A DNA stretch of 64,000 bases. Source: Natronococcus sp. AD-5 (lineage in GTDB: Archaea; Halobacteriota; Halobacteria; Halobacteriales; Natrialbaceae). The DNA is taken from positions 1,736,001-1,800,000 of the forward strand of contig NZ_CP132294.1 in assembly GCF_030734285.1 (NCBI RefSeq), given 5' to 3'. Within the stretch, counting starts at the first letter, position 1. Each line of letters opens with the position of its first letter. Below, piece after piece: positions 5,376-53,003 of the stretch. The position numbers and the translations under genes were made by a program. The notes under the pieces are model-generated. The model was given only the letters and a program-made list of their open reading frames with translations, did no database searches and was not told where the DNA came from.

Positions 5376-5582
5376 TCAGTCGCCGTCGTCGCCCGCCTCG
5401 TCGTCTCGTTCCCAGGCGCGGATCCGGTAGGCGAGGTACCCCGGTACCGTGAGGAGGTAGAGGGCGACGATCGCCGTCGTCGCCGGAGATCGACCGACGA
5501 CGGCGACTACCGCGAGTAACGCGACGCCGAGCCGAAGCAGTACCTCGAACGGCGCCTCGAAGAGCGGCTCGAGGTCGACCAC
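5376..5582 (-). CDS. Small two-helix membrane protein downstream of trkH
   Basis: A 68-residue protein with a GTG start directly abutting the TGA of trkH (no spacing), so translation is probably coupled. Two hydrophobic segments (about residues 14-30 and 33-50) are followed by a charged, very acidic tail. I recognise no family. Its position suggests a small accessory of the K+ transporter, but that rests on context only. Confidence 0.6.
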   Translation of the reverse strand: MVDLEPLFEAPFEVLLRLGVALLAVVAVVGRSPATTAIVALYLLTVPGYLAYRIRAWERDDEAGDDGD

Positions 5583-7096
5583 TCAGATCACCTCGAGTTC
5601 GTCCAGCAGTAGCTTCGCCGAGACGACCGCGGGGATGATCTCGAGACGACCAATCCACATCGCCAGCACGAGCGTTACCTTGAGCGACGAGGGGACGGTC
5701 GCGTCGACGATCCCGGCACTCAGGCCGACGTTCCCCTGTACGCTCGCGACCTCGAAGAGCACGTCTGCGGTCGTGTAATCGGCGGGGAGCACGAGCAGCG
5801 CGACGAAACTCGCCAGAAGGAGCAGGGCGAACCAGAGCACGGCGATGATCGCCGCGGTGTCGAACGCCGCCGAGGCGCGACCGGCCGTGTCGGCCGACGA
5901 CTCGCTCGCTTCGTAGACGTCCATACCGTGTTCCGGCGCGTCTAGGAGGATCCGGCGCACGCGTACGATTTTTATTCCGCCGGCGGTCGACCCCGCGGCA
6001 CCGCCGACGAGCATCGAGGTGGTGACGGCGAGCAGGCTCGGAGCGGCCCACGTGTCGCCGAGGTTCGTTTCGCTCTGCAAGCCGGCGGTAGTGAGTCCCG
6101 AAACGAGCTGGAAGACGCCGTAGCGGACCGAGTCGGCGGTCCTCGAATACGAACCGACGGCCGCGAGCGAGGCGACAACCGCGACCGCGCCGACCGCGAG
6201 CGCTCCGAACATCCACAGCGTCTGTTTGTCCCCCCCCTGATCTTATCGAGATCGCCGCGAAAGAGGAAAAACAACAGACTGAACGAGGTCGCACCGACGA
6301 TCATCACCGGGAGCAGGGCGAGTTCGATCACCGGATCGTCGTAGCTCTCGATACTCGAGGCGGTGATCGTGAATCCGCCGGTGGTCACGCCCGTCATCGC
6401 GTGATTGAGCGCCGCCCACGGCCCCATCCCGACGAGCCAGAGCCAGAGCGCGCTCACGACGGTCAGCAGGGCGAGCAGCCACCACAGCGCCGCCGCCGTC
6501 CCTCGCGTCGTCGACCGAATCGATTCCGTCGGGGCCATATTGCCGTGGATCGCCGAGAACGAGTCGCTCTCCTCGCTGCTGGCGAACGCCGCCGCCAGGA
6601 CGATGACGCCGATCCCGCCGGTCCACTGGAGCAGCGACCGCCACCACTGCAGGCTCCGCGGCAGTTCGTCCGGGTTCGACGCCATGCTGAACCCCGTCCC
6701 GGTGACGCCGCTCATCCCCTCGAAGGCGGCGTCGAGGGGGGTGAGGAACGTCTCGAGCGAGCCCGTCATCTCGGGGACCGCGACGACCGGCGGGGCGAGT
6801 CGAACCGTCCAGGCGAGCGCCGCCAGCGGAAGCGCGCTGAGCAGTCCGGCGACGAACCAGCCGATCGAGACGGTGATGACGCCCGACGACAGCGCGTCGG
6901 GGTCCTCGGGCGTCGTAAACAGTCGCTCGAAGCCGAGCCCCAGCCCGAACGCCGCCGCGGCGGTGATCGCGAACGCGGGGACCGCGTAGAACTCACCCCA
7001 CGCCAGCGCGACGCCTATCGAGAGCGCCGGCAAGGCGGCGTACACCTTGACGAGCGTTCCGAAATCGTAGAGCGCGCGACGTAACGTCCCATCCAT
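5583..7096 (-). pseudogene. trkH: TrkH-family K+ transporter, frame interrupted in a G8 tract
   Basis: Together the two pieces encode a TrkH-type potassium-translocating subunit of about 504 residues, the normal family length. The first part (ATG 7096 to about 6238) carries several membrane helices and P-loop segments such as GMSGVTGTGFS and TGVTTGGFT. The second (about 6229 to the TGA at 5583) carries SGLTTAGLQ and GGAAGSTAGGIK. The frame changes at a run of eight G on the coding strand (C at 6230-6237). Nine or six G would restore one continuous frame, giving ...RGDLDKI-RGG-DKQTLWMFG.... As written, the protein from the first start ends at 5972 with a nonsense tail after the change. This may be a real mutation, a phase-variable tract or a sequencing error. 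Confidence 0.85.
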
Positions 7097-7233: not shown

Positions 7234-7485
7234 CTACTCGAGGAACGCCTCCTCGAACCGGGAAACGCCTCGATCGGTTCCGGCGACGAGGAGCTCGTCG
7301 TTCTCGAGCCGAGACTCGGCGGCGACGTCGCCGTTTCGCTGGACGCCGTCGAGCGCCCCAGGGAGTCGGCACGGTGACCGCGGTCCGGACAGTGGCTGAC
7401 GAACGGCGGGAACGTGATGAAGACGGAGGCGATACCCGTACACTGGACGACGAACGGCGGGGCCCACGACGAGTCGCTCGTTCAC
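7234..7485 (-). pseudogene. Possible remnant of a TrkA_C-like regulatory domain
   Basis: The last 40 or so codons of this open frame read like the end of a TrkA_C (RCK_C) domain: a G-D-V-A-A-E-S-R-L step, the strand DELLVAGTD and a closing RFEEAFLE helix. Upstream the frame loses protein-like composition, and a neighbouring frame instead shows a hydrophobic stretch (FVVQCTGIASVFITFPPFV), as expected after frameshifts. No plausible intact start is visible between here and the end of nth at 7543. It lies just upstream of trkH on the same strand, consistent with a decayed K+-transport regulator. Alternative: an unrelated short gene. Confidence 0.35.
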
Positions 7486-51905: not shown

Positions 51906-53003
51906 ATGACGAGCCCCGAGGCGCGTGAAGAGGCGGTGCTCGAGGCGGTCCGAAAGCGCCGCGAGCTGGTCAACGAGGCGATCCCGGACGAGCTCCCGAT
52001 CCAGCGTCCCGAGCGGCTCTACGAGGCGTCGCGGTACCTGCTGGACGCGGGCGGCAAGCGACTCCGGCCGACCGTCCTGCTGGCGACCGCGGAGGCGCTC
52101 GCCGACGTCGAACCGCTCTCGCGGGAGTACCGGGAGTTTCCCACCCTCGACGAGCGCGCGGAACCATCCGCGGACGACGCGAGCGGCCGGCCGCGAGCGC
52201 CCGAGACGATCGACGCGATGGCCGCCGCCGTCAGCGTCGAGGTCATCCAGTCGTTCACGCTGATCCACGACGACATCATGGACGACGACGACCTCCGCCG
52301 AGGCGTGCCCGCCGTTCACAAGGAGTACGACCTCGAGACGGCTATTCTGGCCGGCGATACGCTCTACTCGAAGGCGTTCGAGATCATGCTCGAGACGGGC
52401 GCCGACCCCGATCGGGCGGTCGAGGCGCTCGGCGTCCTCGCGACGACGTGTACGAAGATCTGCGAGGGGCAGTCGCTGGACGTCACCTTCGAGGAACGCG
52501 ACGACGTCGACCCCGAGGAGTACCTCGAGATGGTCGAACAGAAGACGGCCGTCCTCTACGCCGCCTCGGCGTGTCTCCCGGCGGTCCTGATGGGGGGGGA
52601 CGACGAGACGATCGACGCCCTCTACGGCTACGGACTCGACATCGGCCGCGCGTTCCAGATTCAGGACGACGTCCTCGATCTGACCGTCCCGAGCGAGCAG
52701 CTCGGGAAACAGCGGGGGAGCGACCTCGTCGAGAACAAACAGACGTTGATCACCGTCCACGCTCGCAAACAGGGTGTCGACATCGACGGGCTGGTCGACA
52801 CGAACGACGTCGAAGCGGTTACGGAGGCCGAGATCGACGACGCGGTCGCGGAACTCGAGGCCGCGGGCTCGATCGACTACGCCAACGATACGGCCCGCGA
52901 TCTGGTCGCCCAGGGGAAGGAGCGGCTCGAAGTCCTCCCGGACAACGAGGCTCGCGAGTTGCTGTGCCAGCTGGCGGATTACCTGATCGAACGCGGCTAC
53001 TGA
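51906..53003 (+). CDS. idsA: Polyprenyl synthetase (geranylgeranyl/farnesyl diphosphate synthase)
   Basis: Condenses isopentenyl diphosphate onto allylic diphosphates to make the C15-C25 chains of archaeal lipids. 365 residues. First Asp-rich motif DDIMDDDDLRRG near 120, second QIQDDVLD near 258, and GGKRLRP near 50 for diphosphate binding. An acidic insert (about residues 70-100, TLDERAEPSADDASGRPRA) is longer than in non-halophiles. Chain length cannot be fixed by eye; the two residues before the first motif (LIH) matter. Starts 1 nt after the RNase J stop. Confidence 0.94.
   Translation: MTSPEAREEAVLEAVRKRRELVNEAIPDELPIQRPERLYEASRYLLDAGGKRLRPTVLLATAEALADVEPLSREYREFPTLDERAEPSADDASGRPRAPETIDAMAAAVSVEVIQSFTLIHDDIMDDDDLRRGVPAVHKEYDLETAILAGDTLYSKAFEIMLETGADPDRAVEALGVLATTCTKICEGQSLDVTFEERDDVDPEEYLEMVEQKTAVLYAASACLPAVLMGGDDETIDALYGYGLDIGRAFQIQDDVLDLTVPSEQLGKQRGSDLVENKQTLITVHARKQGVDIDGLVDTNDVEAVTEAEIDDAVAELEAAGSIDYANDTARDLVAQGKERLEVLPDNEARELLCQLADYLIERGY

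Follow-up and report, generated by a model that had tools for sequence, protein, structure and literature searches.

The TrkH transporter of Vibrio parahaemolyticus (TrkH/Ktr family, PDB 3PJZ/4J9U) is among the described systems closest to the protein considered here. As for broken genes of this kind, ordinary pseudogene formation by a homopolymer indel in a redundant paralogue leaves a recognizable picture: a single frameshift is found in a mononucleotide run, the rest of the gene is intact, other copies are present in the genome and relatives are found at later stages of loss. Runs of G are also known from other settings. They serve phase variation in some bacterial pathogens, whose contingency loci carry a poly-G tract within the coding sequence, and a G run that is slippery and suitably phased can be part of a programmed -1 ribosomal frameshift site. 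In addition, homopolymers are a classic site of sequencing errors. Our search of the literature on trkH pseudogenes returned nothing beyond marginal relevance.

We describe here a K+-uptake gene, trkH, of Natronococcus sp. AD-5, a haloarchaeon of the Natrialbaceae, the family that also includes Natrinema and Halopiger. The reading frame of this gene breaks in a run of eight G. The gene lies in a stretch of 64,000 nucleotides, hereafter the window, to which all positions refer unless another contig is named. Like the Vibrio protein, it is matched by the Pfam profile PF02386, and its orthologue aligns with that protein over residues 118-491 (E 2e-28), but in the window gene the frame is lost in the loop that connects domains two and three. 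Nothing essential separates it from an ordinary pseudogene of a redundant paralogue, with which it shares each of the traits listed above; a nearby independent frameshift in another genus is what is unusual. From phase-variable contingency loci it differs in that its tract is unconserved, a repertoire of such tracts is absent and there is no evidence of switching. With programmed -1 sites it shares a slippery, correctly phased G run, but it differs from them in the absence of a stimulator and of conservation, and in that intact orthologues need no shift.

Structure of the Interrupted Gene

The trkH gene runs on the minus strand from 7096 to 5583. The initial annotation of the window had claimed that its frame breaks at a run of eight G, and this was confirmed: a C8 on the plus strand at exactly 6230-6237, which is a G8 on the minus strand, lies between two halves that both match PF02386, as expected for members of the TrkH family. 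The N-terminal half (6238..7096, minus strand, domains D1-D2) begins with an ATG at 7096, covers positions 59-241 of the profile (E 1.4e-29) and shares 78% identity over residues 1-288 with the intact orthologue from Halopiger goleimassiliensis. The C-terminal half (5583..6229, minus strand, domains D3-D4, stop at 5583-5585) covers profile positions 305-493 (E 6.4e-27) and is 75% identical to the same orthologue. Instead of a single continuous four-domain reading frame, the gene thus shows a change of frame at 6230-6237. From the ATG, the N-terminal frame extends over 374 codons and stops at 5972. Its resemblance to TrkH ends at the tract, and its continuation past the tract (5972..6229, minus strand, about 85 codons) is out of frame and shows no TrkH similarity. 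The other frame is open from about 6239 onward and ends with the stop at 5583. Based on the alignment to V. parahaemolyticus TrkH, we place the break in the linker that joins domains two and three. The two halves are otherwise undamaged, a second lesion being absent from both, and the arithmetic by which one nucleotide more or two fewer would reopen the full TrkH frame is right.

Genomic Context of the G Tract

Runs of this length are not unusual in the window, where two G8/C8 runs were found against 2.5 expected from dinucleotide shuffles. In the whole genome (5.17 Mb), runs of at least eight G occur at six sites, four of them intergenic or outside evident genes and two inside genes, namely trkH and an idsA-like gene. 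Because the genome holds just six such sites, the coincidence of a G8 with a frame break is unlikely to be due to chance. The aligned run in the intact orthologues is at most G6, and in several of them it is shorter or interrupted by other bases; the consensus of the break site in these copies is [I]-[W/R]-G-D-x-Q-T. By comparison with their maximum of six G, the window gene therefore carries two more.

The other genic G8 (52592-52599, plus strand) lies in the idsA-like prenyl synthase gene, whose frame continues through the tract undisturbed. No other G run in the genome comes close in length to a G12 at G000:C1:3554527-3554538 (L093), which lies outside evident genes and is a better candidate for length variability than the trkH site.

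State of the trkH Locus in the Family

The intact H. goleimassiliensis protein served as the query for orthologues in 125 genomes of the family. The gene is intact at the same locus in three of them (H. goleimassiliensis itself, G019, as well as G032 and G076), and relative to these three copies the window trkH carries a disabling lesion. Across 342 genomes of the order, just one more protein was recovered, with 52% identity. In the inspected genomes, the trkH slot is situated between nth, which encodes endonuclease III, and a pot-type ABC operon. Several relatives show this slot at other stages. Genome G035 has an internal deletion that leaves roughly the first 30 and the last 155 residues, G004 keeps a remnant made of the last ~43 codons, and in G007 the gene is present as two scraps; in the nth tree, G004 is the genome nearest to that of the window (support 100/97). 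No trkH was detected beside nth in six other genus-mates inspected (G001, G002, G003, G005, G006, and G008), and in G002 the pot genes are likewise absent beside nth. As judged from these sequences, the trkH locus is decaying across the family, where different routes have led to a broken, a deleted or a missing gene. It offers a clear snapshot of gene loss in one archaeal family: a syntenic K+-transport locus is seen in states that range from an intact gene, through apparently fresh frameshifts in two genera, an internal deletion and small scraps, to absence.

The second of these genera is represented by Natrinema zhouii (G087), whose trkH is split over two frames by a different one-base lesion: one C is missing after GAC-GC, at about 5868-5875 of L036, a few bases past the position of the break in the window. 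The pot side of this gene was not found within the stretch examined. No more than about 10 nt separate the two breaks, and the downstream half is in the same relative frame. As the lesions differ, with an extra G in a run on one side and a missing C on the other, the breaks are independent. A frameshift inherited jointly with N. zhouii was rejected on these grounds, and also because the trkH tree separates the two genes. The near-coincident positions are an unexplained coincidence, which counts against the explanation that we favor below.

Decay is also seen next to the gene. Positions 7243..7453 (minus strand) hold what remains of a channel-like TrkA gene, as recognized from blastn pieces matching a 558-aa gene. 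Four genus-mates (G001, G003, G005, and G006) carry that gene intact at the corresponding place, and its product presents the Pfam domains TrkA_N plus TrkA_C and a hydrophobic N terminus. The remnant consists of two out-of-register pieces, corresponding to about codons 81-120 and to the last ~30 codons, and the middle is missing. Since it adjoins the broken trkH, two K+-related genes have decayed adjacently. The genome keeps three other intact trkH genes, so that loss of the present copy is probably tolerated. These copies also weaken the concern, expressed in the initial annotation, that an organism depending on high internal K+ would need the broken gene.

Selection and Age of the Break

Branch-specific dN/dS values were derived from three-taxon distance estimates. 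The terminal branch of the window trkH gave 0.30 (0.21-0.43) vs. 0.19-0.21 for G019, G032, and G087, and as the intervals overlap, relaxation is not proven. In neither half does the codon-position composition depart from normal. Constraint on the gene held until recently and is perhaps slightly relaxed. A branch value of 0.30, compared with about 0.2 in the relatives, points to a recent break, and any neutral phase after it would take up little of the branch, about one eighth under simple mixing. A recent mutation and an assembly error would explain such a pattern equally well. The undamaged state of the two halves is also compatible with a sequencing error or with a conditionally expressed gene.

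Origin of the Frame Break

We consider it probable that a recent slippage mutation disabled a redundant trkH at a locus that has been lost repeatedly within the family. The G run would have grown net from about six to eight, most likely via replication slippage, and this expansion would have shifted the frame in the linker joining the second and third TrkH domains. Normal decoding would then yield no full-length transporter, the likely product being a truncated protein that ends in about 85 unrelated residues. Among the interpretations listed in the initial annotation (an error, a true null mutation, or phase variation), the null mutation is favored by the redundancy of the gene, by the independent losses in relatives and by the decayed TrkA neighbor, while phase variation found no positive support.

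The same break would be read if the true tract had another length and trkH were in fact intact, and a sequencing or assembly error is suggested by the position of the break, exactly in a G run that is among the longest in the genome, as well as by two halves with a dN/dS of about 0.3, an ordinary codon-position composition and no further lesion. The window and 196 kb of flanks were therefore compared with one genus-mate, over about 200 ORFs and 71,094 residues. Fourteen apparent frame changes were seen and none was found in a real gene: those checked closely corresponded to antisense shadow ORFs, to non-coding sequence upstream of starts and to a spurious rDNA-like ORF, while the remaining ones look like gene boundaries, as judged from gapped boundaries alone. 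These 260 kb hold 43 G/C runs of at least six (37 of six, four of seven, and two of eight), and the idsA G8 stays in frame. A generally poor assembly is thus unlikely, although a single wrong homopolymer at trkH could still account for the break. Decay at the locus is genuine in the TrkA neighbor and in relatives, which also speaks against an artifact. The error proposed in the initial annotation has consequently lost ground, and we regard it as unlikely without dismissing it. Much less likely still is phase variation, in which slippage of the G tract would toggle the production of full-length TrkH. The tract does lie in the middle of the gene, where a single step would open the frame, but such a switch is not conserved, since the intact orthologues have at most G6 and some are interrupted. 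Enrichment of the genome in long genic tracts was not observed either, with two coding tracts among the six sites of at least eight G in 5.17 Mb, so that a repertoire of switches is absent. Moreover, the three other trkH genes would mask any on/off effect, and a literature search on homopolymer phase variation in haloarchaea returned nothing relevant. The case is a warning not to take a broken homopolymer in one genome for a phase-variation switch.

Expression across the break was also considered, full-length TrkH being made by programmed -1 frameshifting or transcriptional slippage, or the halves being made separately and then assembled. The sequence G_GGG_GGG in the zero frame is formally a slippery heptamer, the break in the linker between D2 and D3 makes a split TrkH protein conceivable, and dN/dS is well below 1 in both halves; the gene of the second genus, broken within about 10 nt and with its downstream half in the same relative frame, points the same way. 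The remaining evidence argues against it. The pseudoknot-free RNA fold downstream is not unusual (z -0.30 and +1.95; +0.61 in N. zhouii), in agreement with the initial annotation, which saw no obvious stimulator and rated a programmed frameshift as less likely. Furthermore, the N. zhouii break has no slippery run, the intact orthologues decode the region continuously, and no coupled start is available to the C half, as the N frame stops about 240 nt past the ATG at 6212. Expression of this kind is therefore highly improbable, to the same degree as phase variation. The broader idea that some haloarchaea tolerate or use trkH as two half-genes, with a working transporter obtained by frameshifting, transcript slippage or assembly of half-proteins, we hold to be the most doubtful of all. 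If true, it would explain the close breaks of two genera, their same relative frame and the constraint on the halves, and a repeated break at a domain linker, if functional, would constitute a new way of expressing a TrkH transporter. Disablement of a redundant copy by a recent mutation is the reading that we retain.

Other Features of the trkH Region

In the C half (5583-6229), the third selectivity-filter region reads SGLTTAGLQSET in the window, vs. SGLTCTGFQ(T/S)DT in the other four copies. Directly past the trkH stop lies a small ORF of 68 aa with a GTG start (5376..5582, minus strand). A similar small protein is found behind trkH in H. goleimassiliensis (L037, beginning with MDLESVLQAPFEE), and in G004 the DNA similarity runs beyond trkH into the region of this ORF. 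Its product is a possible partner protein.
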